A stretch of 64,000 bases of DNA, from contig SJCO01000002.1 of the NCBI GenBank assembly GCA_005217565.1, forward strand, positions 124,001 through 188,000, given 5' to 3'. Below the pieces are notes generated by a model. It saw only the letters and a program-made list of their open reading frames with translations. It ran no database searches and was not told where the DNA came from. Origin of the DNA: Puteibacter caeruleilacunae (GTDB lineage: Bacteria; Bacteroidota; Bacteroidia; Bacteroidales; Prolixibacteraceae). This document shows positions 14,859-39,262 of this stretch, one piece after another (within the stretch, counting starts at the first letter, position 1; each line of letters starts with the position of its first letter). The translations under genes were made by a program, and so were the position numbers.

Positions 14859-15038
14859 GTAAAGAGTAGTGAAACACTGAATAGGATACTTTATTACTGC
14901 CTTATGACACCGACTTAAACAGGATAATCTTATCAATGCCCGAGTTTCTAATTTGCATTTATGAGGTCCTACCAAATTCGCGAAGTGTTTTAATTATTCT
15001 GACCAACGCTCATTTAAGTTTGAATTTTTTCCCCATTT

Positions 15039-15068
15039 TTGGCATTCTAAAAAAAATACCTACCTTTG
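15039..15068 (+). promoter_or_regulatory. Promoter of the first xylose regulator
   Basis: TTG (15039-15041), 19 bp, then TACCTTTG (15061-15068): a full match to the Bacteroidota TTG-N19-TAnnTTTG pattern. It lies 26 bp ahead of the ATG at 15095 and so rules out the upstream in-frame ATG at 14936. Confidence 0.8.
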
Positions 15069-15080
15069 ACCAGACCGGAC
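15068..15080 (+). promoter_or_regulatory. Candidate operator GACCAGACCGGAC
   Basis: A CCGG-containing imperfect inverted repeat immediately downstream of the -7 box, covering the expected transcription start. It matches 9 of 13 positions of the reverse complement of the element before the second, paralogous regulator (24342-24354). Position and similarity suggest an autoregulatory operator. The similarity is by eye only. Confidence 0.45.
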
Positions 15081-15094
15081 CAGAACACTTTAGG

Positions 15095-16096
15095 ATGAAA
15101 AAAAATAATATAACACTCAATATTAACGCAGCAAGCGATATACCTAAGTTCAGACAGATTATCGATTCGATCAATCATGCGATCGCTGAGAAGAAGCTGA
15201 ACCATGGTGACGTATTGCCTTCAGTTAATTTTATTTGCAAAGAATACAAGTTATCTCGCGATACTGTATTTAAGGCCTATGCTTTACTTAAAGAGCAAGG
15301 TGTTATTGAATCGGTTCCCAATAAAGGTTACTTTGTATCGAAAGAAACCAGACGAGTATTCTTGTTTCTTGATACCTTTAAGGCATACAAAGAAGTCTTA
15401 TACGGACAGTTCAATAAGAACCTGGCACAAAATACAATAGCAGATGTTCACTTTCACCATTACAATATCGATGTTTTCAGGAAATTAGTCCAGGAGAGTG
15501 TTGGCAAGTATTCGAAATACATCATCATGCCATTCGATCATCCAGAGGTAATAGAAATCTTATCGGAATTACCTAAAGAGAATTTATTATTGATCGACTG
15601 GAATATAGGGGCAGCAAACGATAACAATGTTCTATTTCAAGACTTTGGACAATCGGTATACGATGCATTAGAAGGAGCAACTCATCTTATTTCAAAATAT
15701 AAAGAGTTTATTCTTCTATATCCAGAATTTACAGACCACCCTATCGATACTTTAGAGTTTTTCGAGCAATATTGTCGTGATAATAAAATCAACTATTCAA
15801 TCCAACGTAATCCTGATGAATTGAATGTTAGTGGAGAAAAAGCATTCTTTACTGTCAGCGATCGCATGCTTGGAAAGATACTGGAACAATGCAAAAGTAA
15901 AAAGCTTGAACCAGGACAGGATGTTGGTATACTATCATACAATGAAACTCCGATGAAAAAATTCATTCACAGAGGTATTTCAGTAATATCAACCGATTTT
16001 CATCAGCTAGGTTCTAAAGCTGCAGAGTTTGCGTCTAGTGATATGAAACTAAAACTCTGTGTACCAACCTCTCTTATCATCAGAGAATCACTTTAA
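15095..16096 (+). CDS. GntR-type regulator with periplasmic-binding-like sensor domain (xylose regulator 1)
   Basis: Sugar-responsive transcription factor, 333 aa. The N-terminal winged helix (about residues 12-78) shows HGDVLPSVNFICKEYKLSRD and KEQGVIESVPNKGYFVSKE, typical of GntR. Residues 85-333 read as a LacI/periplasmic-binding-like effector domain ending with a 'STDFHQLGSKAAEFA' segment. The start was chosen because it follows the promoter by 26 bp and matches the start of its paralogue at 24417. It is 67 bp upstream of xylulokinase on the same strand, so it probably senses xylose or a xylo-oligosaccharide and controls this locus; the effector is inference. Confidence 0.85.
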   Translation: MKKNNITLNINAASDIPKFRQIIDSINHAIAEKKLNHGDVLPSVNFICKEYKLSRDTVFKAYALLKEQGVIESVPNKGYFVSKETRRVFLFLDTFKAYKEVLYGQFNKNLAQNTIADVHFHHYNIDVFRKLVQESVGKYSKYIIMPFDHPEVIEILSELPKENLLLIDWNIGAANDNNVLFQDFGQSVYDALEGATHLISKYKEFILLYPEFTDHPIDTLEFFEQYCRDNKINYSIQRNPDELNVSGEKAFFTVSDRMLGKILEQCKSKKLEPGQDVGILSYNETPMKKFIHRGISVISTDFHQLGSKAAEFASSDMKLKLCVPTSLIIRESL

Positions 16097-16163
16097 GAAA
16101 ACCAATTAGAGTTAGTATATTTTTTAAAATCATCACCATACCAGAACAGAATAGAAAGTCATT

Positions 16164-17633
16164 ATGTATACACTAGGAATTGATATAGGAAGTTCATCAG
16201 TAAAAGTTAGTCTACTTGATGTAGCAAAAGGGAAAAGCATTGCATCAGATTTTTTCCCAAAGAAGGAAATGGAAATCACTGCAATACAAGCAGGATGGGC
16301 TGAACAGCATCCCGACATGTGGTGGAAAAATATGTCACTAGCATTAGAAAGCACTTTGGAACAAGCCCAAATCAATCGTAATGAAATCAAAGCAATAGGG
16401 ATATCATACCAGATGCATGGCTTAGTTTGTATCGACAAGGAAGGGAATGTATTACGACCTTCCATTATCTGGTGCGATAGTCGTGCTGTAGAAATTGGTA
16501 AAGAGGTAAACGAAAAGTTAGGAGCTGAATTTTGTCTTGAAAACTTCTTAAACTCTCCAGGGAATTTCACCGCATCTAAGCTAAAGTGGGTAAAAGATAA
16601 TGAACCTGAATTGTATGAAAAGATCGATAAAATCATGCTACCAGGCGATTATATGGCCTATAAACTAACTGGCGTATGCGGGACAACCATTTCGGGATTA
16701 TCTGAGGGTATTCTTTGGAACTTCAAGCAAAACGAAATAGCATTGGATCTATTAAAAGAAATGGGAATTGGAGATGAATTGTTGCCTGAAATACTTGAAA
16801 ACTTTACTCCTCAAGGAGAATTGCTTCCTGCTATAGCTGAAGAACTTGGCTTACCTGCAGGGATACCTGTAAGTTATCGTGCAGGAGATCAACCAAACAA
16901 TGCCTTTTCGTTAAATGTACTTAATCCTGGTGAAGTAGCAGCTACAGCCGGTACATCAGGAGTAGTTTATGGAGTAAGTGACCTACAAAAATATGACGAT
17001 CAATCGAGAGTCAACACCTTTGCTCATGTAAATCATACTGTAGACAATTCACGATTGGGAATTCTACTATGTATCAATGGTACCGGTATTTTAAATTCAT
17101 GGTTAAGAAAGAATATTTGTCCAGAATTAAGTTATGAAGCCATGAATGATGAGGCTTCAAAAGTGGCACCAGGATCAGATGGTTTAAATCTATATCCATT
17201 TGGAAATGGAGCCGAGAGAGTTTTAGGAAATCAGAATCCTGGAGCATCCTTCAAGGATCTTAATTTCAACATCCATTCACGCGGACACATCTTAAGAGCT
17301 GCACAAGAAGGCATCGCCTTTAGCTTCAAATATGGTATGGACATCATGAAAGACTTAGGCATCAACATGACCGTCATTAAAGCAGGGAAAGCCAATATGT
17401 TCTTAAGTCCTATTTTCCGTGAAACACTTGCCAATGTTACCGTAGCAAAAATTGAACTTTACGATACCGATGGAGCAGAAGGAGCAGCTCGTGGAGCTGC
17501 ACTAGGAGCAGGTATTTACAATAATCTGCAAGAGACTTTTGCATCGCTTAACAAGTTAGAGGAAATCTATCCTGAAGAAGCAAAAAGAGAAGAATATCAA
17601 CAAATTTACACGAACTGGAAAACCAAAGTATAA
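16164..17633 (+). CDS. xylB: Xylulokinase (FGGY family)
   Basis: Phosphorylates D-xylulose to xylulose 5-phosphate for the pentose phosphate pathway, 489 aa. FGGY landmarks are the N-terminal phosphate loop LGIDIGSSSVKVSLLDV, the XylB-typical ISYQMHGLVCIDKEG, SIIWCDSRA, LPGDYMAYKLTG, and ADP-site glycines in ATAGTSGVVYGV and DGAEGAARGAALGAG. It lies downstream of the GntR regulator and upstream of the GH3 and xylose isomerase genes on the same strand, which supports xylulose over other ketose substrates. Confidence 0.93.
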   Translation: MYTLGIDIGSSSVKVSLLDVAKGKSIASDFFPKKEMEITAIQAGWAEQHPDMWWKNMSLALESTLEQAQINRNEIKAIGISYQMHGLVCIDKEGNVLRPSIIWCDSRAVEIGKEVNEKLGAEFCLENFLNSPGNFTASKLKWVKDNEPELYEKIDKIMLPGDYMAYKLTGVCGTTISGLSEGILWNFKQNEIALDLLKEMGIGDELLPEILENFTPQGELLPAIAEELGLPAGIPVSYRAGDQPNNAFSLNVLNPGEVAATAGTSGVVYGVSDLQKYDDQSRVNTFAHVNHTVDNSRLGILLCINGTGILNSWLRKNICPELSYEAMNDEASKVAPGSDGLNLYPFGNGAERVLGNQNPGASFKDLNFNIHSRGHILRAAQEGIAFSFKYGMDIMKDLGINMTVIKAGKANMFLSPIFRETLANVTVAKIELYDTDGAEGAARGAALGAGIYNNLQETFASLNKLEEIYPEEAKREEYQQIYTNWKTKV

Positions 17634-17675
17634 CTCAATATATCATTAAAATCACAATTAAAAACCACAATCAAA

Positions 17676-20258
17676 ATGAAACAATTACCGTTGTTATTAA
17701 TCGTTTATTTACTGGGAGGACTGGTGAATGCACAGGAGTACAAGTATCCCTTTCAGGATCCTTGTCGGTCGGCAGAGGAGAGGGCCGATGACCTGTTATC
17801 TAGGATGACACCTGAAGAAAAAATCACACAGATGGTCGACAGGTCTGCAGCCATTGATCGATTGGGAATTGAAGAGTATAACTGGTGGAATGAATGCCTA
17901 CATGGAGTTGCCCGTTCAGGAGCCGCCACATCTTTTCCTCAAGCCGTAGGAATGGCTGCTACATGGAATGACCAATTAATCAACCAGGTTGCGGATGCAA
18001 TAAGTACTGAAGCTCGTGCCAAATTCAACGAAAACATTCGCCAGGGAAAAAGAGGTCGCTATGAAGGATTAACCATGTGGACACCAAACATCAACATTTT
18101 CAGAGACCCAAGATGGGGACGTGGACAGGAAACTTATGGAGAAGATCCTTATCTGACCTCACGTTTAGGTGTAGCCTTCGTGAAAGGTCTTCAAGGGGAT
18201 AATCCTGATTACTACAAAGTAGTAGCAACACCGAAGCACTATGCAGTGCACAGTGGTCCAGAGCCTAACCGCCATTCTTTTGATGCATATACTGATATGC
18301 GTGATTTATGGGAAACTTATCTTCCTGCCTTTGAAGCTACCGTGAAAGAAGGACAGGCATTCTCGGTGATGTCAGCTTATAACCGTTACCTTGGAGAATC
18401 ATGCACTGCAAGTGACTTTCTTCTGAATAAGATCTTAAGGGATCAGTGGGGATTTAAAGGTTATGTGGTATCAGACTGTGGAGCAGTTTATGATATTTAC
18501 AAATTTCACAATATTGTTCCAACTGCAGAAGAAGCAGCTGCACTATCTGTTAAGTCGGGTTGTGACCTTAATTGCGGATCAACCTTTAAAGCGCTGGACA
18601 AAGCGTTGAAAAAAGGATTGATAACAGAGAAAGAAATTGACGTTGCATTAAAGCGTCTTATCATAGCTAAGATTAAACTAGGTCTGTTAGATCCTCCTGA
18701 AAAAGTTCCTTTCGCTACCATTCCTTACGAGAAAAATGAGTGTAAAGAGCACCAGGATTTAGCACTTGAAACAACCAAGCAATCCATTGTTCTTTTAAAG
18801 AATGAGAACAATACGCTTCCATTAAGAACTGATATAAGATCGATTACAGTTGTGGGTCCGAATGCCAACGATAAGAATTTCCTTTTAGGTAATTACTTTG
18901 GAATTCCAACACACTATTCAACTGTCTTAGATGGAATTAAACAAGCAGTTTCATCAAAGACTAAAGTTCATTACTTTAAAGGATGTAACTTGGCTGATAC
19001 CAATCCACCGATTGATGTAGTGCATACTTCATTCTTCCAAAAGGAAACGCTTAAAGCTGAATACTACACTAATGCACAAATGGAAGGAAAGCCAGTTTTT
19101 TCAGGTACTGTAAAACTAATTGACTTTGATTGGGGAGGTGCCGCACCTATTCCTCAACTAAAGCCAGAAGAATATTCTATTCGATATACAGGCAAACTAA
19201 TTCCAAAAGAGACAGGCGAATTTGACTTGTCGGTTGCATCGAAAGGTGGATTCTATAGAGTATTTGTAAACGATGAGATTCTTCTTAACAATTGGGAGAA
19301 ACAAGACAGTGCTTCGCATAGAAAAACCATCAGTTTAGAAAAAGGTAAAAAATATGACATCCGACTAGAATACTGGTGTAAAAATCCTTGGTTATCGAAA
19401 ATTCAGTTAAACTGGTTAACTCCATCGGCAAGGAACAATGACATTCTTATTCAACAAGCAGGACAATCAGATGCTATCGTGTTTGTAGGTGGTATCTCTG
19501 CGGCATTGGAAGGAGAAGAAATGCCTGTAAAGGTAGATGGTTTCAAAGGTGGAGATCGCACCCACTTGAAGCTACCGAAAGTACAGGAAGATTTATTGGA
19601 GAAACTTCATGCGACAGGTAAACCAGTGATCTTCTTGCTAACAACAGGAAGTGCCATGGCCATAAATTGGGAGCAAGAGCATCTTCCTGCAATCATGAAT
19701 ATCTGGTATCCAGGTCAGGCTGGTGGTAAAGCTGTTGCTGATATTCTGTTTGGAAAATCATCACCATCAGGAAAACTACCGGTTACATTTTACAAGTCGG
19801 TAAATGACCTTCCTCCATTTGAAGATTATCACATGGCAGGTAGAACTTACAAGTACTTTGAAGGAACACCGCTTTATCCATTTGGTTTCGGATTAAGCTA
19901 CTCATCTTTCATGATTTCAAAACCTGAGTTATCGAAGAAGACAATCACCTCGAATGAATCAGTAACAGTTAATGTTCTTGTTACCAATAGTGGTGATTAT
20001 AACGCCCACGAAACAGTACAGGTATACGTCAAGGATTTACAATCAAGTGTACCAAAACCAATTAAATCGTTGAGAAAATTCAAGAAGATATTCCTTAAAA
20101 AAGGAGAATCACAAACACTTGAATTTACCCTTGATCCTGCTGACTTCTCAGTAAGAGATGCTCAAGGAAAACCTTTTGTGGAAGCAGGAGTATTCGAGAT
20201 TTTAATAGGAGACAATTCAGAAACAACAAATAAATCAACATTAAGAATAACAAAATAA
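17676..20258 (+). CDS. Exported GH3 beta-xylosidase/beta-glucosidase with PA14 insert
   Basis: Glycoside hydrolase family 3 enzyme, 860 aa, that would release xylose from xylo-oligosaccharides in the periplasm. There is a signal peptide (residues 1-19, cleavage after VNA). The GH3 N-terminal barrel runs about 30-355 with the nucleophile Asp in [15 protein letters not shown] (about 267). The second domain is split by a PA14-type module (about 455-600, [20 protein letters not shown]), and a C-terminal fibronectin-like domain (about 770-855) follows. Substrate is inferred from the xylose genes on both sides; GH3 alone does not separate xylosidase from glucosidase or arabinosidase. The stop is 7 bp before xylose isomerase. 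Confidence 0.88.
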
Positions 20259-20265
20259 ACGTATT

Positions 20266-21591
20266 ATGAGCTTAACAATTGGCAATAAAGAATATTTCCC
20301 AACAATTGGGAAAATTGCTTACGAAGGTCCAGATTCAAAAAATCCATTGGCCTTTAAATGGTATGATGAAAACCGTGTAGTTGCTGGTAAAACGATGAAA
20401 GAGCATCTTCGTTTTGCTGTAGCCTACTGGCATACCTTCTGTGGCGACGGTGGAGATCCATTCGGACCAGGAACACAAATTTTCCCTTGGGGTACTGAAG
20501 CAGATCCTATTGCTGCGGCAAAATCAAAAATGGATGCAGCGTTTGAGTTTATCACTAAACTAGGCGTACCTTTTTACTGTTTCCACGATACCGACGTTGT
20601 TGGTGATGGTAGCGTATTCGAAATTGAGAAGCGTTTAGCAACCATGGTGGAATATGCAAAGCAGAAGCAGGCTGACTCGGGAGTAAAATTACTTTGGGGT
20701 ACTGCTAATGTATTCTCTAATCCTCGTTACATGAATGGAGCATCAACCAATCCTGATTTCAACGTATTGGCCAATGCTGCTACTCAGGTTAAAAATGCCA
20801 TTGATGCAACTATTGCTCTTGGAGGTAAAGGATATGTATTCTGGGGTGGTAGAGAAGGTTATATGTCGCTTCACAACACCGACATGAAGCGTGAATTAGA
20901 TCACTTGGGCATGTTCCTACGCATGGCTCGTGACTATGGTCGCCAGAATGGATTCGACGGAACTTTCTTCATTGAACCTAAGCCAATGGAGCCAACTAAG
21001 CATCAGTATGATTTTGACACAGCAACCGTACTTGGATTCTTGAACAAATATGGGTTAGCTGACGACTTTAAGATCAATATTGAAGTAAATCATGCAACAC
21101 TTGCAGGTCATACATTTGCACATGAACTACAGACAGCTGTTGACAACAACATGCTAGGAAGTATTGATGCAAACAAAGGAGACTATCAAAATGGATGGGA
21201 TACTGATGAATTCCCAACAAGCATTTATGAGGTTACTGAAGCTATGTTACCTATCCTTCAAAACGGAGGATTTGAGCACGGAGGTATCAACTTTGATGCA
21301 AAAACCAGACGTAACTCTACAGACCTTGAGGATATCTTCATCGCACACGTTGGAGGAATGGATGTATTTGCAAGAGCATTAATTATTGCTGATAAAATCC
21401 GTACTGAGTCACCTTACTTACAAATGAAGAAAGATCGTTACGCATCGTACGACACTGCTAATGGTAGTCGTTTTGAAAACGGTGAATTGACTCTTTCAGA
21501 CTTGAGAAACATCGCAAAAGAGGCTGGAGAACCAGCACAAATTAGCGGAAAACAAGAACTACTTGAGCAATTGATAAACTGGTATATTTAA
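20266..21591 (+). CDS. xylA: Xylose isomerase
   Basis: Converts D-xylose to D-xylulose, 441 aa, class II length. The motifs are strong: [13 protein letters not shown] (catalytic His region), [17 protein letters not shown] (metal and substrate binding), [18 protein letters not shown] (metal-binding Glu and Lys), [14 protein letters not shown], and [20 protein letters not shown]. It starts 7 bp after the GH3 gene, so translation is probably coupled. It is followed by an intra-operon terminator-like hairpin before the transporter gene. Confidence 0.97.
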
Positions 21592-21605
21592 TACCAAATA
21601 TAGAT

Positions 21606-21636
21606 GGTTAGGAGATCTACTCTCCTAACCTTTTTT
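21606..21636 (+). terminator. Terminator-like hairpin between xylA and the transporter gene
   Basis: The 10-bp stem GGTTAGGAGA / TCTCCTAACC has a 5-nt loop and is followed by six T. It lies 15 bp after the xylA stop and 17 bp before the transporter ATG. It should reduce readthrough, so the transporter may be expressed at a lower level than xylA. Confidence 0.85.
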
Positions 21637-21652
21637 CCAAAAAAGACTAACT

Positions 21653-23068
21653 ATGGAAGATAATTATAACAAGCGTTTTATAACATCAATTACACTGGTG
21701 GCAACCCTTGGAGGTCTATTGTTTGGTTACGACACAGCCGTAATTTCCGGGACAGTAGGTTCACTCAAAAGCTTCTTTATTGATCCACGCGGGCTGGAAG
21801 AGATTGCAGCTAATTCCTTACTAGGTATAACAGTATCCAGTGCTCTCCTTGGATGTATTATAGGAGGATTAAGTGGAGGTATTTTGGCTCTAAAACTGGG
21901 AAGAAGAACAAGTTTGATGGTAGCTGCACTTTTATTTACGCTCTCTGCCATCGGTTCAGCAATGCCAGAAATAGGTATTCAAGAGATCGGTTCAGGCAAT
22001 CACATGTTACTCACTCCATTCATTATTTATAGAATTATTGGAGGTATTGGAGTAGGATTAGCATCGATGCTATCACCAATGTATATTGCAGAGATGGCAC
22101 CCGCAAATAAACGAGGTAGTCTGGTTTCGTGGAACCAGTTTGCCATCATTTTTGGAATGTTGGTGGTTTACTTTGTCAACTACTACATCGCACTTCAGGG
22201 AGATGATGACTGGTTAAATACGATAGGATGGAGATGGATGTTTGCTTCAGAGACAATTCCTGCCATGCTATTTTTCGTTCTGTTGTTCTTTGTTCCAGAA
22301 AGTCCCCGTTGGCTAGTAATTAAGCAGCAAGAGTCGAAAGCCAGCTCTGTACTTGAGAAAATTAGTGGGAAAGTACAAGCTGCAAAAGAGTTAGCAGAGA
22401 TTAAGCTAAGTCTTACTGGCAACCAATCAGGCAAACTATTTTCATATGGTGCATTAATAATTGTAATCGGTATATTACTTTCAGTATTCCAACAGTTTGT
22501 CGGAATTAATGTGGTATTATACTATGCTCCTGAAATCTTCAAGAATATGGGATCAGGAACCGATACTGCATTATTACAAACCATCATTGTTGGTTTCATC
22601 AACCTTACTTTTACTGTTATTGCCATATTCACTGTTGATCGCTTTGGACGTAAACCTCTTCAGATCATCGGTGCATTAGGAATGGCAATAAGTATGATCG
22701 CACTAGGATTCACATTCTTCCTTCAACAAATGGGCATTGGTGCATTGGTATTCATGCTAACTTATGTTGCTTCATTTGCAATGTCGTGGGGACCTGTAAC
22801 CTGGGTACTATTATCGGAAATATTCCCTAATCGTATCAGAGGAAGAGCTATGGCCGTTGCGGTTGCAGCACAATGGATTTCAAATTACCTTGTATCATGG
22901 ACATTCCCAATGATGGATAAATCATCGTTATTGAATAATCTTTTCCATCACGGTTTTGCATATTGGATATATGGAATCATGGGACTTCTTGCGGCGTTAT
23001 TCGTTTGGAAGATGGTTCCGGAAACCAAAGGAAAATCATTGGAAGAAATGGAAAAACTTTGGAAATAA
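21653..23068 (+). CDS. MFS sugar porter, probable xylose/H+ symporter
   Basis: Inner-membrane major-facilitator transporter of the sugar porter family, 471 aa, with twelve predicted membrane segments. Family signatures are GYDTAVISGTVGSL in helix 1, GGLSGGILALKLGRRTSLM, PESPRWLV after helix 6, FQQFVGINVVLYYAPEIF in helix 7 (sugar-binding Gln residues), DRFGRKPL and VPETKGKSLEEMEKLW at the C terminus. The sequence and context are closest to XylE-type proteins. An internal terminator-like hairpin precedes it, and epimerase is encoded convergently downstream. Confidence 0.9.
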   Translation: MEDNYNKRFITSITLVATLGGLLFGYDTAVISGTVGSLKSFFIDPRGLEEIAANSLLGITVSSALLGCIIGGLSGGILALKLGRRTSLMVAALLFTLSAIGSAMPEIGIQEIGSGNHMLLTPFIIYRIIGGIGVGLASMLSPMYIAEMAPANKRGSLVSWNQFAIIFGMLVVYFVNYYIALQGDDDWLNTIGWRWMFASETIPAMLFFVLLFFVPESPRWLVIKQQESKASSVLEKISGKVQAAKELAEIKLSLTGNQSGKLFSYGALIIVIGILLSVFQQFVGINVVLYYAPEIFKNMGSGTDTALLQTIIVGFINLTFTVIAIFTVDRFGRKPLQIIGALGMAISMIALGFTFFLQQMGIGALVFMLTYVASFAMSWGPVTWVLLSEIFPNRIRGRAMAVAVAAQWISNYLVSWTFPMMDKSSLLNNLFHHGFAYWIYGIMGLLAALFVWKMVPETKGKSLEEMEKLWK

Positions 23069-25533: not shown

Positions 25534-29310
<3,777 letters not shown>

Positions 29311-29409: not shown

Positions 29410-32208
29410 TTATTCAATGACCAACCAAGTATAAGAGTTGGCTGGAATTGTCACTGTTACTTTTACCGTGTAATCGCGCGCCAAATCATAAGACTTAGCT
29501 TTCCCTTCCTTCACACGAATCTTTGCCGATTTTGTTAAACCAGTATAATAAAGTGGAAGATCCACAGTTCGGGTAATCTCTTCATCGGTTGGATTGAACA
29601 ACATTGCCAAACCTTTCTCTTTCAACTGAGGATTAACATGAATAAATCCATCCCAATCTTTTCCAGAAGGACGACGTAGATGTATAATATCACTATTCAA
29701 AATATCACGATACTGCTTATACCAGTTGATTACCTTTACAACAAGTGCCTTTGTTTCGTCAGTATCAAATAATCTTGGTCCGCGATAACATGCCTGTACT
29801 CCAGAACCATAATTCTGCATCATTTGGTTCTCATAATCATCCAGATGATCTTTCAACGGCTCTAAGGTAGCTGCTGCTCCACCACCATGATACTGAGTCA
29901 ATGGTACAAATGTCCAACACATTGATGGAATACGATCCCACAATCCGTCATAGATATTTGTGCGACCAAGCACCAACTGGCGATCACGAGGCAGTGACCA
30001 GTTCACTTCACGATAACCAATACCTGTTTTATTTGTTCCTGAATTAATATAGAAATCAGGAACATTCATGTAGATTCCTTCCGATCGCATCCACTTATAT
30101 AATCCTTGAATCTGAGCATATTGCTTCCACTGAGAATCTCCCAAACCATGGTGATGAGCATGTTTTGTTGATGCACATACATTACCTGGATATGAACCAT
30201 CATTCTCAAAAACATTCATACCTGTCTTGGTAAAGAACTTTTTGATTTTTCGGAAGTAATCATACCCCCATTCACTACACAAACAAGGAGAAGAACCAAA
30301 GATCATCCCCCCTCTCTTACCTGTCTTAGGGTTAATCACATCCACTTCATCACTAATCCAACGACTAGATAACAAGGAATATCCTCCTAGCTCAATACCT
30401 TTACCGTGAGCATAATCGACTAAGTCCTTAAATTTCTGATAATACTCTTCTGACTCTTTTTCCATATTTAAGCCGCTACCAAAACTTAAGATGATCATCT
30501 CATATCCAACAGCAGCACATTGATCAACAGCACGCTTAACAACCTTTGGATCTGTAGAAGTTAGGTGTAAGAATATTGGGTTCTCTGTTGACCATGGAGA
30601 AATAGTACGATACATTTTACGAATGAACATACCTCTTCGCTCCTCCTCACGGGTATCCATTGGTGTCTCCCACACCCTGAAAGTAGATAGTTTTCCTCCT
30701 TTGGCAATAGCCGTTTCTGGCCCTAATGGAGGTCTAACCTCTAACATACAAGGCAACTGAAGAGGGTAATTTGTCTGTGAAGTATAACGAGGATCTGTCT
30801 CCCAATAAGTGGTTACATCAGAGTTCTTTTGCTGCATCCCGCCGAATGCATAATCAGTCTCGATATGAATATTAGGCTTTATCCAATGATCAGGAGTACC
30901 AACAAGATTCTCTCCCTCGACCATTGCCAATTGTTCTAATTTGAAAGCGTTTAGCAACACCATCATATCATTGGTATTAACCACCTCGATCCACTTGCTT
31001 AAGGTTGGAACACCATCATATAACGCAAAATGAACTTTTACAACAACACCGTCCTTCTCTAATGTAAAAATCAATTCTTTTCCTTTAGGCATTTGGTCAT
31101 TAGCGGCCCAACGAACACGTTTCCATTCCAGACGTTCTTCCAACTCTTTAACCTCAAAATCCTGAATCATGAAAGAGTTAGCTGTAGCTGTTAAATTATC
31201 AACCCATTTTCTCAAGGTGTAAGCATATTCAGGCTGTTTACTTAATCCTCCAATATTATAGCTTTTCCCATCTATTGTCAATACTCCTTCATTTGACACA
31301 CCTCTGAGGATGCTCTCTCCTGTCATTTGATTTATATAGTCAACAGTAGCCAGATTAGGAGATACTCGGAATACACGTGCAATCAATCCATTTGACAATA
31401 CTATTTCTCGATTATCATTGGTTCGGTAAACCTCTGCTTTTGCTTTAGAGTTATCAATTAACCAGTCATAATCAGGTTGAGCCAATGGCATTTCAATAGT
31501 CGATAACTTCTCTATTTTTTTATCAAGTCTATCTTTAATCTCACCTGACTGCTCTACTTTTTTTCCAACAAAATCGACCGATGCTGCAAGTGGAGCAATC
31601 TCAAAATATTCGATTTTAGGCTCAATCCACACAGCATGGTCGCCACTAGCTCCATCACCTCCATCTTCAACAACTAATTCAAGTACTCCGCGATTAGCCT
31701 TAACATTAATATTTCGGGCCTGTTCTCCTTGCTTAATAAGTCCTGAGTTATATATTTCTTTCCCATTGTGAATCAATCGGAATACTACACTCCCCTGATT
31801 AACTCTACCTTCTTCTCCTTCAACACCGATAAACTGTTTATGATCGTCAGTTACATTATAAAACATGCGTTTTCCATCAGTCAAAGGGATCGATTTAACG
31901 GTCTTAGCCTGATAGTCAATGTCCGAGTCGTTAACACCAATCTTAGCTGTAAAGCGACTTCCATCATTCATCTTTATTTTGAGGATTGATTTGGCATGCA
32001 CGCCTATACCTAAACTAAAACGATGTCCTCCAACCTTTATATCTTCACCTGCTACTGATTTATTTTTTACAGGTGCACTGTAAGTTTGCTGAGCTAAATT
32101 AATCTGTAAATCCTGAACGTTTACCCAATTCTGAGCATAGCCTCCAAGATTCATTCCTGCAATCATCAAACATCCCAGGGCAAACTTCTTTATACTATTA
32201 CGCTTCAT
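29410..32208 (-). CDS. NPCBM-domain glycoside hydrolase, putative clan GH-D-like (alpha-galactosidase-like)
   Basis: Exported hydrolase of about 932 aa. After a signal peptide (KKFALGCLMIAGMNLGGYAQ) comes an NPCBM-type carbohydrate-binding domain (about residues 25-200, with 'GGHRFSLGIGVHAKS' and 'HAVWIEPKIEYFEI'). The catalytic part resembles alpha-galactosidase-like barrels, with candidate nucleophile Asp in VFENDGSYPGN and candidate acid/base Asp in MNVPDFYINSG. A C-terminal beta domain follows (about 850-930). I do not recognise the exact family. A second in-frame ATG 48 bp upstream (32256) lies in a duplicated ACGCTTCATT context; the inner start gives a normal signal peptide and is preferred. 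Confidence 0.65.
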   Translation of the reverse strand: MKRNSIKKFALGCLMIAGMNLGGYAQNWVNVQDLQINLAQQTYSAPVKNKSVAGEDIKVGGHRFSLGIGVHAKSILKIKMNDGSRFTAKIGVNDSDIDYQAKTVKSIPLTDGKRMFYNVTDDHKQFIGVEGEEGRVNQGSVVFRLIHNGKEIYNSGLIKQGEQARNINVKANRGVLELVVEDGGDGASGDHAVWIEPKIEYFEIAPLAASVDFVGKKVEQSGEIKDRLDKKIEKLSTIEMPLAQPDYDWLIDNSKAKAEVYRTNDNREIVLSNGLIARVFRVSPNLATVDYINQMTGESILRGVSNEGVLTIDGKSYNIGGLSKQPEYAYTLRKWVDNLTATANSFMIQDFEVKELEERLEWKRVRWAANDQMPKGKELIFTLEKDGVVVKVHFALYDGVPTLSKWIEVVNTNDMMVLLNAFKLEQLAMVEGENLVGTPDHWIKPNIHIETDYAFGGMQQKNSDVTTYWETDPRYTSQTNYPLQLPCMLEVRPPLGPETAIAKGGKLSTFRVWETPMDTREEERRGMFIRKMYRTISPWSTENPIFLHLTSTDPKVVKRAVDQCAAVGYEMIILSFGSGLNMEKESEEYYQKFKDLVDYAHGKGIELGGYSLLSSRWISDEVDVINPKTGKRGGMIFGSSPCLCSEWGYDYFRKIKKFFTKTGMNVFENDGSYPGNVCASTKHAHHHGLGDSQWKQYAQIQGLYKWMRSEGIYMNVPDFYINSGTNKTGIGYREVNWSLPRDRQLVLGRTNIYDGLWDRIPSMCWTFVPLTQYHGGGAAATLEPLKDHLDDYENQMMQNYGSGVQACYRGPRLFDTDETKALVVKVINWYKQYRDILNSDIIHLRRPSGKDWDGFIHVNPQLKEKGLAMLFNPTDEEITRTVDLPLYYTGLTKSAKIRVKEGKAKSYDLARDYTVKVTVTIPANSYTWLVIE

Positions 32209-32340
32209 TCTTTCTAGTTTATTATGTTTTTCTTCCCACAATTCACTACGCTTCATTATGGGTACGAGTTTTTTTATCGGTCGTTATAACCAAGGTTAAA
32301 ATCCTGGCTTAGTAACTTCCCTACCTATCAGCATCATTAG

Positions 32341-32458: not shown

Positions 32459-33811
32459 TTAGTTGATATTATAAACCGACATATCCCTTATGATAGGTGT
32501 TGCTGCTGATTTATTTACAACCAACTTCACTGCCGTCAGTTTCTTTGTATCAAATTGATGAATATACTTGTGTCCAATACAAGATCCTTTAAACAACGAT
32601 ACCCATTGTCCATTTTCTTTACCAAGCAATTCAAAGTCACGCACTCTTTCTCCTTTGCTGATATCCTCCATCAACACTACGTGGTTAATCTCTTGTTCCT
32701 TTTTCAGGTCTATAATAAGCTCATTCCCCTTACCTTTTTCATTCCCGATAGGTTTAGAAAAACGCTTCTTAATTTCATCACCAAATTCTTTCATTCTAGC
32801 AACATCAACATCTGGCACCAAACCACGAGGATCAACAACAACACCAATCAACATGTTGGTATTACGACCTGCTGTTGTATAATATTTTTCGATAAGCGTT
32901 TCTAGCGACATTAAATGTTTTGTGTTTTCAGGATGGTAAAACCAACCTCCTTGCCATCCACCATGACGAATAGGAAAGTCTGCTTCTCCAGGACACCATA
33001 ATGGTCCTTCGCAATCACCATGCAAACGATCAATCTCTTTGTCTCCACCACTTGAGGTTGTAGTATGCGTAGTACTCCAGCATGGGTATGGTGCAACACC
33101 TCTCTCATTACCTACCCAGCGAATCAATGAATTCGTTCCTTCCGGTCCTTGAAATACAACAGCTTGTGGTTGATGTTTATGCAGCAATGTAACAATATCA
33201 GGCCCCCCTTTCTCTGGAGGAAGACATCCACCATCAAACCAGATTTCGAAAAACTTACCATATCCAGAATAAATCTCGGTTAGCTGCTGCTCCACCATAT
33301 CATTATATTCCTTTTGTGCTTTAGGATCATTTCCTCTAACCAAACCAGGATTATCTACTTTTTTATAACCATTTGCTGCTGCACTATAATAAACTCCTGG
33401 ACGCACACCATACTTCTTACATGACTTTACAAATTCAGCAAGAATATCACCTTTTCCATTCTTCCATGGAGAGCTTTTGATACCATAATCATGAGCCTCA
33501 CTTGGCCACAAGCAGAAGCCAGTACAATGTTTTACCACCAACACTGCATACTCACCCCCCATATCTTTAACAGACTTAACCCATTGATCGGTATTCAATT
33601 CTGTTGGATTAAAAATTTTAGGATCAGGATCATAATCCCATTGTCCGCGCCATTGATATTCTGGCTCGTAAACATTTATATCAAAATGAATTATTGCACC
33701 AATCTCACAATCGGCCCATTCAACCTGTTCTTTTGTTGGCTTTGCTATCTCCTGTGCCACAATTGAGGTGACAAATAGAAGCATTAGGAGGGTTTGACTA
33801 ATTTTCTTCAT
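32459..33811 (-). CDS. GH29 alpha-L-fucosidase with C-terminal F5/8C-like domain
   Basis: Exported retaining alpha-fucosidase, 450 aa. The signal peptide ends at IVAQ (about 19). The GH29 barrel shows IGAIIHFDINVYEPE near the start, VLVVKHCTGFCLWPS, VYYSAAANGY, and EIWFDGGCLPPE with the probable nucleophile Asp (about 190). Residues about 355-450 form a discoidin-like beta sandwich (DLKKEQEINHVVLMEDISKG). This short form with a galactose-binding-like tail is like the GH29 subgroup acting on linked fucose, but linkage is not readable. It lies between the GH31 and NPCBM glycosidase genes on the same strand. Confidence 0.88.
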   Translation of the reverse strand: MKKISQTLLMLLFVTSIVAQEIAKPTKEQVEWADCEIGAIIHFDINVYEPEYQWRGQWDYDPDPKIFNPTELNTDQWVKSVKDMGGEYAVLVVKHCTGFCLWPSEAHDYGIKSSPWKNGKGDILAEFVKSCKKYGVRPGVYYSAAANGYKKVDNPGLVRGNDPKAQKEYNDMVEQQLTEIYSGYGKFFEIWFDGGCLPPEKGGPDIVTLLHKHQPQAVVFQGPEGTNSLIRWVGNERGVAPYPCWSTTHTTTSSGGDKEIDRLHGDCEGPLWCPGEADFPIRHGGWQGGWFYHPENTKHLMSLETLIEKYYTTAGRNTNMLIGVVVDPRGLVPDVDVARMKEFGDEIKKRFSKPIGNEKGKGNELIIDLKKEQEINHVVLMEDISKGERVRDFELLGKENGQWVSLFKGSCIGHKYIHQFDTKKLTAVKLVVNKSAATPIIRDMSVYNIN

Positions 33812-33925: not shown

Positions 33926-36082
33926 CTATTTGGTCATAAATTTCCATGAAACTTTACCGAAATTCCAAGGTCCTCCAGTATGCTCATCTTTGATTGATCC
34001 TTTGCCATTAGAAACCGACAAAGACTTCATAGTATATTTACCCTTTTCAAAGTCAAAGGTTTTACCATCATCATCATACAGTTTAAATGTGCCATCAGCT
34101 TTACCATACACACGGATTTCAAGCGGTGTATTATTGTTCCATTCTGCTGTTTGGCGAATAGATGGAATCATAGGTAAGATACCTCCGTCCTTCACAAACA
34201 ATGGAATTTTATCCAATCCTGGCTTAACCTTAATCACTTCTCCATCACCAACATACTTACCAGTATAGAAATCGTACCATTTACCTCTAGGAAGAACCAC
34301 TTTTCTCTCCTTTTCACCAGCAAACATTGGAGCTACTAAAACATAGTCTCCCATCATATACTGGTCCTTAACCTCTTTCTTTACAGCTTCCTCATAAGGA
34401 TTATTGGTATCATCCAATTTTCCTTGAGTCTCTTCTGCTTTTGCATAATATCCTTCAGTTAATTCCATTGCACGGAATGGAGGTGTACCTTCGAAGTGAT
34501 ATTGAGCAAATGTAGAATAGATGTAAGGAAGCATTTGCATTCTCAAAAAGGCTACATCCTGACAAGCCTTATATACGTCAGGGAAAGACCAAGGTTTTGT
34601 TCCTGAAGCCCATGCATTCAACATTGCCATTGGAGAAAAACAAACCGATTGCATTCGTCTTACCCACTCCTCAGAAGACTTACTCTGGCGAACTTCAGGT
34701 GTCCACAATACTCCGTTGAAACTTGAGTTAATCAAAGCAGTAATAAAATCACGATGACTATAGTAATCGTTATAAATCACATATGGATAAGATACTGATC
34801 CAGCATTAGCTGCACGAATTAATCCATAAGTTCTTTCATTTTTACGTCTGTAAATCTCATCTGTTAGTGTCATCATCTGCGTACCATAAGTCTGGCGCAT
34901 CTGCTCTCCATCTTTACCTGAAGGAAAAGTTGCAACATCAGGCCACAACCAGTGGTCGAAACCATCTACTTCGTCAATTTTATAACCACTCACACCAATA
35001 TCTAGTTGATGTTTATTAAAGTGATCTTGCATTATTTTTCGAGCTTCTGGAATAGTATAATCTGGCACAGTTCCACACCATACAGTATGACTACCTGTAT
35101 AGTTCTTCATTTTCTTATCCAAATTACTATCAGGCCACAAATAAGGATTACACCAAAGATTTAGGTAAACTCCCTTTTCTGACATTTCCTTTGTAAAACC
35201 AGCAGGATCAGGGTAGCGTCCTTCATCCCACTCAAACGTACATGGATATGCTTTACTATGCCATCCTGGCTCAAGTCCTAATACATCCAATGGGAAGTTA
35301 TTCTTTTCAAAACCAGCTACTTCTTTACGCTGATCATTATCAGAGTAACGGGTTGGAGTACGTTGCCAGAATCCTAATCCCCATTTTGGAGGCAATGTAC
35401 CACCACCACAGTAAAGGTTAAAGCGGCGAACAACATCCATCATATTTTCTCCTGTGAACATTATCAATTCAACACCTTCCTCAGGAACTACAAATTCAAT
35501 GTTATCAGAATATGGTCTTGAAGACCAACCTTTTCCAACATTTCTATCTACCACCTTAGCAGGGTGCTTACTATCCTTTGTTACACCTGATCCTACATAA
35601 ATATCAATGTAGCGGGCTGCATTAATAAATACTCCATATCCTTTTGATGAAATAAAGAAAGGAACAGGAGCATGAGACCTACCGTCATCTTTACCTGTAT
35701 AGTGGTCCATATGAAGACGAAGAATTTTTCCTCGCTGATGAACTGTCTTGAAGTTCAATCCTAATCCAAAGATCTGTTCTTCTTTTTCCAATGGAAAACG
35801 AACATAGGTCTTCCCATTACGGGTAAATGCTTCTACTTCTTTTTGATCAATAGGAATAGGTGCATTCTTCATTTTCTTAATTGCATCCTGGCGAGGTTCT
35901 TTACCACTAACCGATAATAGATTAAAATCGGCTGGTTCATTAATTTCAGACTTCCACACACCTGGAAGCTCTTCCTGCCATTGTGGAGTTAGTTTAGCTC
36001 CACTTATTTGCTTCGAGTCGTTCTTCACTGTACAACTAAATGCAAGCATGAACAACGCAAATAACATAGTAAGATTCTTCAT
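33926..36082 (-). CDS. GH31 family alpha-glycosidase lipoprotein
   Basis: Glycoside hydrolase family 31 enzyme, 718 aa. The N terminus is a lipoprotein signal (FMLAFSC, Cys about 17), so it is membrane-anchored. The GH31 fold is supported by EEQIFGLGLNFKTVHQRG, GVFINAARYIDIYVGSG, PPKWGLGFWQRTPTRYSD, a nucleophile-type Asp in VSGYKIDEVDGFD (about 365), and FRAMELTEGYYAKAEE, VAPMFAGEKERKVVLPRGKW near the end. The KIDEVDG motif differs from the classic alpha-xylosidase KTDFGE type, so specificity (glucoside, xyloside, galactoside or other) is open. Closest regulator is the membrane AraC protein upstream. Confidence 0.88.
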   Translation of the reverse strand: MKNLTMLFALFMLAFSCTVKNDSKQISGAKLTPQWQEELPGVWKSEINEPADFNLLSVSGKEPRQDAIKKMKNAPIPIDQKEVEAFTRNGKTYVRFPLEKEEQIFGLGLNFKTVHQRGKILRLHMDHYTGKDDGRSHAPVPFFISSKGYGVFINAARYIDIYVGSGVTKDSKHPAKVVDRNVGKGWSSRPYSDNIEFVVPEEGVELIMFTGENMMDVVRRFNLYCGGGTLPPKWGLGFWQRTPTRYSDNDQRKEVAGFEKNNFPLDVLGLEPGWHSKAYPCTFEWDEGRYPDPAGFTKEMSEKGVYLNLWCNPYLWPDSNLDKKMKNYTGSHTVWCGTVPDYTIPEARKIMQDHFNKHQLDIGVSGYKIDEVDGFDHWLWPDVATFPSGKDGEQMRQTYGTQMMTLTDEIYRRKNERTYGLIRAANAGSVSYPYVIYNDYYSHRDFITALINSSFNGVLWTPEVRQSKSSEEWVRRMQSVCFSPMAMLNAWASGTKPWSFPDVYKACQDVAFLRMQMLPYIYSTFAQYHFEGTPPFRAMELTEGYYAKAEETQGKLDDTNNPYEEAVKKEVKDQYMMGDYVLVAPMFAGEKERKVVLPRGKWYDFYTGKYVGDGEVIKVKPGLDKIPLFVKDGGILPMIPSIRQTAEWNNNTPLEIRVYGKADGTFKLYDDDGKTFDFEKGKYTMKSLSVSNGKGSIKDEHTGGPWNFGKVSWKFMTK

Positions 36083-36379: not shown

Positions 36380-39262
36380 CTATTCTTCAGCATTCATCTT
36401 TCGCTGAAAAGCAGAAGGAGTCATTCCTGTATTATTCTTGAAAATTCTATTAAATGCCGATTTTGAATTAAAACCACAATCCCATGCAATAGATAAGATC
36501 GTTTGACTTTGATATTTGGGATCCTTTAATTTTCTCTTGACTTCTTCAATGCGATATTCATTGATCAGATCATAAAAGTTTCGTCCCATATGATCATTCA
36601 GCATTGCTGAAAGTTGATTAGGAGTCATACCCAATCTATCAGCTAAGTCAGACAGTCCCAGATTCGAATCAAGGTAAAGTTTCTCATCAGTCATTAGCTC
36701 TTGTAATTCATCGACTTTATCTTTCAATTCATCTGGGATACTTATGTTGCTTTTACGATCATCTATTGAAGATTTGACTTCTTGTGATTGGATTTGTTCT
36801 GCCTTCTTTCTTTTTTGCCACCTCATTCCCAACACTAATATCACTCCAACTCCTATTACAGCCAACCAAACCATTGCAAACGATTTTTCAGCTTCAACAA
36901 CCACCTGCATTTCTTCGATATCATTCGACCAAACACCATCATTATTAGCAGCTCTCAGCTGGAAAGTATATAAGCCCTTAGGTAAATTGGTGTAATTAAC
37001 CATAGGATTACGGCCTTGATAAGTAATCCAATCATCATCGTATCCTGCCAAACGATAGGAATAAATATTACGGTTAGGGCTGGTATATAACATTGCCGAG
37101 AACTCTACTTTAAAACGGTTATTTTCATATGGTAACTGAATTTTCAATCCCAATGGTCCTTTCGCCATGATAACGTTACCATTCAATGAATCTCCAACTA
37201 GAATAACTTGCTCGTCGATCAATACATTTGTTATTCCAGGATGAGGGACAGAAATATTCTCCGACATGCGTATGGGATTAAAATAGGTTACCCCACCTGC
37301 TCCTCCAAAGTACATGGTACCATCCTCATCACGCCAGGCTGAATTCTTTCGGAACTTACCCTTAACCACGCCATCGTAGGTAGTATAATTGACAAACACT
37401 TCGGTACGAGGATTAAATTTTGATAATCCTTTATTGGTCCCAATCCAAAGATTACCAGTCTCGTCTTCTAAAATTGCATTGACCTCATTATCCGACAGAC
37501 CATCCTTTTCGGTATATGCTTTAAACGTAAAGACGCTTTCTCCATTCTCCTGATCTTCGATTACTTTATTCAAACCAGCAGGAGATGTACCAATCCATAA
37601 CTGTTGTTTACTATCCTCAAATATTACAAACACTTCATCGCTACTAATACTAGTTGAGTCATTTGCATTAGTTCTAAAATGTTCAAAGTGAATATTGCCA
37701 TCAGTATCCTCATGCATTAAATTCAGACCTCCATGATTGGTTGCCACCCAAATTCTTCCTTTTGAATCCTCGAAAACCTTAAAGATATGGTTAATACTAA
37801 GACTCTCTGAATTATATCGATCTTGAGCAAAAGTCTTCAATTTAAAATCACCATCATCATCTTCCTCAACCAGGACTAATCCTCCTTGTGTTCCCAACCA
37901 GATGCGTTCTTTCTTATCCTGAATTACCGATTGTACCGAATTAGACGGTAATCCCCCACTAATATCTGCACGACTCGTTAAGTGCTTAAAAGTTCCATTC
38001 TTACGATCATATATATTCACACCGTGATCCCAAGTCGTAATCCAAAGTCGTCCTTTTGAATCCTCCAGGAAAGAACTCACATAATTTCCCCACAGACCAT
38101 CTGGTTCACTATGCTGTGGAGGAAAATGCTCAAACATAAATCCGGCTTCGGTTTCAACAACCTTATCCATTCCTTTATCCCGCGTTCCAAGCCACAGAAT
38201 ACCTTGCTTATCACGAAATATTGCCTGTATAAAATTGTTACTTAACGAATGCTCATTGTTAGGTATATGACGCCAGCTTTTAAATCGGTTTCTTGTCCAA
38301 TCATAGATATCCAGACCTTCCTGTGTTCCTAACCAAACAACACCAGATCTATCGCTATAAATATCATAAATATCATCACTACTTGTTGATCCTGGATCCA
38401 ATGGATTGGCCTCAAACCACTCAAAGTTATCCTCATCACGATTATAAACCAACAGACCACTACCATAACCACCAAAATACAATTGACCGTAACGATCTTC
38501 CCCTATTTTATCATAGTCATCTTTAAATTCCCTTGGAACTTGTAGCTGTTGAAAACTCCTTTTTGAACTACTATAGTAAAAGATACCTGCACCACCTGTA
38601 CCCCAAAGAATACCATACCTATCGCTATACAATTCATTGATTTTTATATCAAAAGTATTTTCAACTTTCTTTTCATCCTTATTGTAACGGATAATTCCTT
38701 CCGTGGTGCACACCCACAAAACATTATTGGAATCCTCAAAAACAGACTCAATTTTATAATCGGGTAGAATATAATCCAATTGATTAGACGATTCATCAAA
38801 GACTGTTATACCATTCCAACTATCTCTTATCCACAAATGATCATCAGAATCGACAAATAGGTAATGAATAAATTTAGATTCCAACTCCTTTCTACGATCA
38901 CAAATTGCACTCCATCTTTCAACCTGTCCTTCACTATTTATCCTACACAGGCCAGTAGTAGTTCCAATCCACACTCCTCCATTTTTTGAGGTAGTCATGG
39001 AATATATCTTATCACCACATATCGTTGCACGATTGTCTTGATCACATTTATAGATTTGAAATCGATATCCATCGAATGACGTTAAACCATTCTGTGTTCC
39101 AAACCACATTAATCCCTTACTATCCTGACGAATCAAACGAACTTCATTATGAGATAATCCGTTTTCCGTAGTATAATGATCAAAATGAGGATTATTCAGC
39201 GCCCAAAGTTTCACTGAGATCAAAAGACAAAAGCTACATATGAATGGTATGGTACGTCTCAT
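36380..39262 (-). CDS. Membrane-spanning propeller/AraC one-component regulator (Reg_prop, Y_Y_Y, HTH_18)
   Basis: A 960-aa regulator that probably senses a glycan fragment in the periplasm and activates the glycosidase cluster downstream. There is a signal/anchor at residues 1-22. Residues about 30-700 hold many ~45-aa propeller repeats with the 'DSKGxLWIGTxxGL' pattern, forming two seven-bladed-type propellers. A Y_Y_Y domain (about 715-785, YSYRLAGYDDDWITYQGRNP) and one membrane helix (about 796-814, WLAVIGVGVILVLGM) follow. Then about 45 linker residues lead directly to an AraC-type HTH (about 860-957, LADRLGMTPNQLSAMLNDH and SIAWDCGFNSKSAFNRIFKNNTG). No histidine kinase, ATPase or receiver domain is present, unlike hybrid two-component systems. 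Confidence 0.9.
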   Translation of the reverse strand: MRRTIPFICSFCLLISVKLWALNNPHFDHYTTENGLSHNEVRLIRQDSKGLMWFGTQNGLTSFDGYRFQIYKCDQDNRATICGDKIYSMTTSKNGGVWIGTTTGLCRINSEGQVERWSAICDRRKELESKFIHYLFVDSDDHLWIRDSWNGITVFDESSNQLDYILPDYKIESVFEDSNNVLWVCTTEGIIRYNKDEKKVENTFDIKINELYSDRYGILWGTGGAGIFYYSSSKRSFQQLQVPREFKDDYDKIGEDRYGQLYFGGYGSGLLVYNRDEDNFEWFEANPLDPGSTSSDDIYDIYSDRSGVVWLGTQEGLDIYDWTRNRFKSWRHIPNNEHSLSNNFIQAIFRDKQGILWLGTRDKGMDKVVETEAGFMFEHFPPQHSEPDGLWGNYVSSFLEDSKGRLWITTWDHGVNIYDRKNGTFKHLTSRADISGGLPSNSVQSVIQDKKERIWLGTQGGLVLVEEDDDGDFKLKTFAQDRYNSESLSINHIFKVFEDSKGRIWVATNHGGLNLMHEDTDGNIHFEHFRTNANDSTSISSDEVFVIFEDSKQQLWIGTSPAGLNKVIEDQENGESVFTFKAYTEKDGLSDNEVNAILEDETGNLWIGTNKGLSKFNPRTEVFVNYTTYDGVVKGKFRKNSAWRDEDGTMYFGGAGGVTYFNPIRMSENISVPHPGITNVLIDEQVILVGDSLNGNVIMAKGPLGLKIQLPYENNRFKVEFSAMLYTSPNRNIYSYRLAGYDDDWITYQGRNPMVNYTNLPKGLYTFQLRAANNDGVWSNDIEEMQVVVEAEKSFAMVWLAVIGVGVILVLGMRWQKRKKAEQIQSQEVKSSIDDRKSNISIPDELKDKVDELQELMTDEKLYLDSNLGLSDLADRLGMTPNQLSAMLNDHMGRNFYDLINEYRIEEVKRKLKDPKYQSQTILSIAWDCGFNSKSAFNRIFKNNTGMTPSAFQRKMNAEE

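Follow-up and report, generated by a model that had tools for sequence, protein, structure and literature searches.

A predicted one-component membrane regulator joining a propeller-type sensor to a kinase-less AraC output beside glycosidase genes

The window, i.e., the whole 64,000-nucleotide stretch of Puteibacter caeruleilacunae DNA that was analysed, carries on its minus strand an uninterrupted frame of 960 aa (positions 36380-39262, ATG to TAG) that encodes a putative transcription regulator. Glycosidase genes lie downstream of it on the same strand, starting 297 bases away. The parts of the regulator and the neighboring genes are:

39197..39262, minus strand: N-terminal signal helix, residues 1-22 (hydropathy; helix 4-21 in the model)
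37238..39187, minus strand: beta-propellers with Reg_prop repeats, residues about 26-675 (Pfam Reg_prop, 4.9e-56; strands in the model; PDB match)
36896..37087, minus strand: Y_Y_Y domain, residues 726-789 (Pfam, 1.1e-18)
36824..36880, minus strand: single transmembrane (TM) helix, residues 795-813 (hydropathy 2.61; helix 795-824 in the model)
36656..36823, minus strand: cytoplasmic linker, residues 814-869 (low-confidence at 818-840, then a helix at 844-858; no Pfam match)
36401..36646, minus strand: AraC-type HTH_18, residues 873-954, of a membrane-AraC subfamily (Pfam, 3.7e-21; profiles, tree split, and docking residues)
33926..36082, minus strand: GH31 gene (best NCBIfam match an alpha-xylosidase, under the cut-off; genes 76% and 73% identical beside the orthologs)
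32459..33811, minus strand: alpha-L-fucosidase-like gene (Pfam Alpha_L_fucos; an 81% identical gene near both orthologs)
29410..32256, minus strand: NPCBM-containing protein, a probable glycosidase (75% identical over 805 aa in the first ortholog's locus, where the sequence stops before the gene does)
25534..29310, minus strand: GH2 beta-galactosidase with an F5/8 type C domain (NF052611, over the cut-off)

An earlier note on this DNA, which named no strand, had read the protein as a propeller, a Y_Y_Y domain, one TM helix, and an AraC HTH with no kinase, ATPase, or receiver, and both Pfam and hydropathy agree with that layout. Hydropathy predicts one TM segment, at residues 795-813, besides the N-terminal signal helix, and a second Pfam family, HTH_AraC, also matches the C terminus (1.3e-8). 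We modeled the regulator as a monomer in AlphaFold2, with an alignment of 30 proteins as input (21 of the short layout and nine hybrid two-component systems, HTCSs). The model has a mean pLDDT of 87.4 and a pTM of 0.72, with most propeller strands at a pLDDT of about 90, and it places in order the propeller strands, Y_Y_Y, helix 795-824, a low-confidence stretch at 818-840, helix 844-858, and the AraC helices. Helix 844-858 of the linker is part of a shared module that precedes the HTH.

To pass through a phosphorelay, a signal would need domains that we do not find here. Pfam gave no match at E up to 1 to kinase, ATPase, Hpt, or receiver families in the regulator, nor to any phosphorelay domain in the linker between the TM helix and the HTH; the earlier note had called for exactly these whole-protein and linker searches, and the model likewise leaves no room for such a domain. 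The end of the TM helix is 51 residues from the HTH core in the query and 36-68 residues from it in 20 of 22 proteins (the other two lack an anchor and were omitted), a distance too short to hold a phosphorelay. HisKA, HATPase_c, and Response_reg, which are among the defining domains of HTCSs, are thus missing from the regulator. Its input and its HTH output instead lie in one chain without phosphotransfer domains, with at least one TM segment predicted between them, as in membrane-bound one-component AraC regulators. With no phosphorelay domain present, the signal within the protein must pass without phosphorylation, and this part of the earlier note is supported as far as sequence can support it.

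The same contrast holds for related proteins. Among the 30 aligned proteins (21 with the short layout, of which 15 lack their N terminus because the locus ends there, and nine HTCSs of the same genome; L056, a near-copy of L054, was omitted), Reg_prop, HTH_18, and HTH_AraC matched all 30 and Y_Y_Y matched 29, whereas HisKA, HATPase_c, and Response_reg each matched nine members. By number, these nine are the HTCSs. Scanned by name, P0001 has none of these three phosphorelay domains, and neither do P0002 to P0007 and L044 (six proteins of the own genome and one ortholog); P0004 and P0005 have no Y_Y_Y match at 0.001. All 11 remaining HTCS comparison proteins carry HisKA, HATPase_c, and Response_reg.

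An internal deletion, a frameshift, or an assembly error might produce such a layout, and the earlier note had named a frameshift or assembly deletion as what would overturn its reading. The frame is intact, and an artifact is ruled out by two orthologous loci with the same layout and gene order. A first scan of named genomes for orthologs found none; a second found nine loci, two of them full-length with the same layout. Both orthologs (45-47% identity) are followed by GH31 and fucosidase-like genes, as in the window. The first (L046; 45% identity, 961 aa, same domains) comes from a different genus within the family; the genes behind it match the GH31, fucosidase-like, and NPCBM genes of the window, in that order, with identities of 76%, 81%, and 75%. 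The second (L138; 950 aa, same domains), from a Carboxylicivirga MAG, is followed by a GH31 gene (73%), a second GH31-type gene, and a fucosidase-like gene (81%); the NPCBM gene was not found in 9.6 kb of this locus. A GH2 gene was found in neither locus, both of which stop short of the position where one would be expected. Between the window and these two loci, the glycosidases are 73-81% identical and the regulators 45-47%. To judge from these identities, the sensor-regulator is evolving much faster than its neighboring glycosidases.

The regulator had been said to head a four-gene glycosidase cluster. The genes are indeed adjacent, co-directional, and downstream, at a distance of 297 bases, and may or may not form one operon. 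This gap would suit the idea that the protein has its main targets elsewhere, or represses, and that the neighboring glycosidases fall outside its regulon. So would the promoters, in which a search for a common operator gave no significant match: the score of the best of seven comparisons (GH31 versus regulator promoter) was reached by 7 of 200 shuffles. Against it, both orthologous loci have GH31 and fucosidase-like genes after the regulator, and we consider it quite unlikely.

The side chains of fucosylated xyloglucan are the targets of alpha-xylosidase, beta-galactosidase, and fucosidase. About 2.5 kb beyond the glycosidase cluster lies a xylose operon (window positions 14936-23068) with genes for a GntR regulator that has a periplasmic-binding-like domain, an FGGY kinase (nearest to xylulokinase), a GH3, a xylose isomerase, and an XylE-type transporter. 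Because genes resembling all three occur together in the cluster (the alpha-xylosidase-like GH31, the GH2 beta-galactosidase, and the fucosidase-like gene), with this xylose operon nearby, the likeliest ligand may be a xyloglucan-type oligosaccharide; the gene content hints at this weakly, and we give the assignment clearly less than even credence. Neither an endo-xyloglucanase nor a SusCD pair was found among the cluster genes scanned.

The sensor is of the HTCS kind. By sequence, its nearest solved structures are 4a2l and 3v9f, the periplasmic domains of BT4663 and BT3049, and Foldseek ranked periplasmic chains of BT4663 at the top (4a2m_B, E 1.6e-54, TM 0.77 by target). The regulator thus has the periplasmic Reg_prop/Y_Y_Y sensor that characterizes HTCSs. 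The earlier note's proposal that it is a glycan sensor fits with this BT4663-type fold and with the glycosidase synteny in two other genomes, and we regard a glycan-sensing role as probable on those grounds. In the same Foldseek list, BT4673 is titled a "putative one component system" in one entry (3ott) and a "hybrid two component system" in another (3va6); the depositors had therefore considered the one-component idea. A tree of the sensors (27 rows, with one of the 20 HTCSs, L085, a frame without a TM segment, omitted) does not resolve where the query sensor came from.

The output domain is of another type. We built two HTH profiles, the first from the HTHs of 20 HTCSs and the second from those of 20 multi-TM AraC proteins; in leave-one-out comparisons, each assigned its own members correctly (20/20 and 20/20). 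The query HTH scores 150.6 bits against the multi-TM profile and 50.0 bits against the HTCS profile. The multi-TM profile wins in all seven proteins of the query type from the own genome and the orthologs, in L108, L109, and L112, and in 16/16 propeller proteins from the order (themselves selected with a profile of similar kind), while the HTCS profile wins for L034, L044, six other HTCS-like proteins, and four soluble AraC proteins. The 16 propeller and 13 multi-TM proteins from the order were found with a query-type profile, so that their HTH type and their lack of docking residues are not independent observations; other means led to the seven own-genome and ortholog proteins and to seven multi-TM proteins of the own genome. 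A tree of 78 HTH domains agrees with the profiles, with a main split (100/99 support) of 32 versus 46 rows, on a short alignment that leaves 30 inner forks open. Left out of this tree are L046 and L047, which duplicate L039 and L032, as well as matches weaker than 1e-20 (L041 and L043).

Residues proposed to hold an HTCS output in check tell the same two types apart. For Bacteroides HTCSs, it has been proposed that the receiver docks through its S/CHIP loop onto two residues of the DNA-binding domain (DBD): a D in helix 6 and, 39 residues further on, a K that sits in a recognition helix. Altering the loop relieves inhibition (PMC11253607, in excerpt). We located the docking columns by the 39-residue spacing. 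In all 20 HTCSs of the own genome, K is present and the other position is D (17) or E (3), whereas both D/E and K are absent from 7/7 query-type proteins of the own genome and orthologs, and no member of the 23 propeller-TM proteins with the query HTH type has them (16 of these being profile-selected). The S/CHIP motif occurs in 16/20 HTCSs and 0/8 short proteins. Elsewhere, the multi-TM rows have K in 0/20 and E in 2/20, the six HTCS-like others have D in four and K in three, and the soluble AraC proteins have D in 1/4 and K in 0/4. The regulator therefore lacks the HTCS-type HTH with D/K docking residues, and with those residues absent its output is not built for a receiver. By these measures, it belongs to an AraC subfamily different from the HTCS output, a point that the earlier note had overlooked.

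These data bear on whether the protein is a degenerate HTCS, in which an internal deletion removed kinase, ATPase, and receiver and left the sensor, TM helix, and original HTH. Its HTCS-type sensor would fit, and L034 and L044 indicate that such a route exists: these short propeller regulators (G000:C194:313000-319500 and G000:C204:165500-171500) carry HTCS-type HTHs (136 versus 48 bits and 119 versus 57 bits) and retain the docking K in 2/2 and the D in 1/2, as expected of HTCS derivatives. Topology tests also do not reject a placement of the query and ortholog on the HTCS side (30 versus 48 rows, p-AU 0.17; 34 versus 44 rows with the four soluble rows added, p-AU 0.45), a question that concerns only the other side of the main branch, e.g., its base, and not nesting among HTCSs. 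Grouping the query and ortholog with the 22 HTCS-type rows gave a p-AU of 0.0006, which should not be leaned on because this group omits six HTCS-like rows that fall among the HTCS-type rows; the 22 rows alone gave 0.28. Set against this are the 100-bit deficit of the query HTH on the HTCS profile relative to the multi-TM one, its position across the 100/99 split, the lack of docking residues, and the recurrence of the layout in two other genomes. The exact branching of the query and ortholog HTH is left open by the topology tests, an HTCS origin of this HTH is disfavored by the profile scores and the tree split and is unlikely, and we consider the deletion account as a whole very improbable. 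Most likely, the protein arose by the joining of a propeller sensor to a kinase-less membrane AraC output. L034 and L044 are apparent kinase-loss forms, i.e., a second route to the same layout.

The layout recurs. The own genome has 57 Y_Y_Y matches, 50 of them in frames of 1210-1478 aa (HTCS-sized) and seven in short frames; one Y_Y_Y frame, L045, is 252 aa long. Searches with Y_Y_Y, Reg_prop, and HTH yielded eight short propeller-AraC proteins in this genome, and six have the query-type HTH (the window gene, L031, L032, L033, L037, and L036). L036 (G000:C194:112500-118500), a propeller-Y_Y_Y-TM-AraC regulator, contains one in-frame stop, which may reflect a pseudogene, a sequencing error, or recoding. 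With frames judged by eye, L032 lies beside a fucosidase-like start, L033 beside a sulfatase-like start, and L037 beside genes resembling a sigma/anti-sigma pair. A Y_Y_Y-TM-HTH profile found the full layout in at least 17 genomes besides the own one among 295 searched in the order, a lower bound with eight candidates scored per genome; of 18 full-layout places listed outside the own genome, 16 were retrieved and 15 domain-scanned. In a phylum sample, likewise a lower bound with six candidates scored per genome, at least 4 of 395 genomes have it (the own genome, G200, G292, and G670). The linker-HTH part alone is far wider, matching at 1e-30 in 149/395 genomes, and the matches listed are mostly frames of about 370-420 aa; seven such proteins retrieved from the own genome show four to six hydrophobic peaks. 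L108 (G000:C48:97600-99800) and L109 (G000:C2:373900-376100) have a lectin-like Laminin_G_3 domain, a TM segment, and a query-type HTH_18. Judged by their domains, they pair a different kind of sensor with this kinase-less AraC output.

Taken together, we propose that the regulator is probably a one-component inner-membrane transcription regulator of the neighboring glycosidase genes. The sensors of HTCSs are reported as dimers that change upon ligand binding, and two AraC DBDs side by side are said to activate transcription (PMC11253607, in excerpt); a scissor-like movement has been reported for BT4663 (PMC8534201, in excerpt). By analogy, an oligosaccharide would bind the periplasmic propeller and Y_Y_Y region, as the fold suggests, and binding would rearrange a sensor dimer. 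Passed on through the one TM helix and a flexible 36-68-residue tether, this change could then alter how far apart two cytoplasmic AraC-type DBDs lie or how they pair, and these DBDs might act on promoters held at the membrane, with no phosphorylation step as far as domains can show. That the tether varies in length and is partly unstructured in the model argues for a loose, proximity-changing connection over a stiff helix that transmits rotation, and we infer that it would change DBD proximity and not impose a rigid rotation. A variable and poorly structured linker after the TM helix would also suit signal-dependent proteolysis, in which cleavage near the membrane frees a soluble AraC fragment as the active form; no protease gene was found among the cluster genes scanned, and we think this route unlikely. 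The membrane-held regulator remains our preferred reading. More broadly, and at a little under even confidence, we suggest a recurrent family of swapped receptors, in which an HTCS propeller sensor sits on a phosphorylation-free AraC output without docking residues and a bound glycan would by itself, via the geometry of the dimer and a loose tether, switch DNA binding at the membrane.

It has been argued that HTCSs cannot do without a receiver-DBD lock, given that their DBDs are already tethered in a dimer (PMC11253607, in excerpt). Proteins of the query type keep the sensor, lack the lock, and have another output, and hence a comparison of both kinds in one genome tests transmission by the sensor alone. 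If the swapped-receptor reading is true, the HTCS sensor works as an autonomous switch for which the kinase is dispensable. Such proteins would also offer simpler parts for glycan-responsive gene control.

Membrane AraC regulators have precedents, among them RhgR/YesS of Bacillus. Compared with Bacteroides HTCSs of the BT4663 and BT3049 type, whose architecture is described in PMC3243724 (in excerpt), the regulator shares Reg_prop propellers, Y_Y_Y, one TM helix, a C-terminal AraC-type HTH, and a sensor fold matching 4a2m/4a2l, but it has no HisKA, HATPase, or receiver, its HTH is of another subfamily, and it lacks the S/CHIP-DK receiver lock. The multi-TM proteins of its own HTH type (about 370-420 aa) have the HTH module in common with it, but not the propeller sensor or the single TM helix, and L108 and L109 of its own genome likewise place a TM segment before a same-type HTH but sense through a lectin-like domain, not propellers. 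SusR-like regulators of Bacteroides are membrane-anchored and distinct from HTCSs, and dimeric DNA binding has been proposed for them (PMC3878776, in excerpt). Compared by description, they resemble the query as membrane-anchored Bacteroidota glycan regulators apart from HTCSs, but the excerpted text reports no significant similarity of the SusR DBD to known ones. In Saccharophagus degradans, 16 of 31 AraC regulators are membrane-bound, and membrane-bound one-component AraC regulators with 2 or 6-7 TM segments lie beside polysaccharide genes (PMC2386152, in excerpt). Again by description, these share with the query the membrane anchor, the AraC HTH, the lack of a phosphorelay, and polysaccharide-gene neighbors, but the query has a large propeller sensor and one TM helix. 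The novelty implied by the earlier note therefore holds in part: among the literature matches listed, we found no description of a propeller-AraC protein without a kinase, but membrane-bound one-component AraC regulators near glycan genes were already published. What is known, from the excerpted part of PMC2386152, is the membrane-bound one-component AraC regulator near glycosidase genes; what appears new is the propeller sensor on a kinase-less output.
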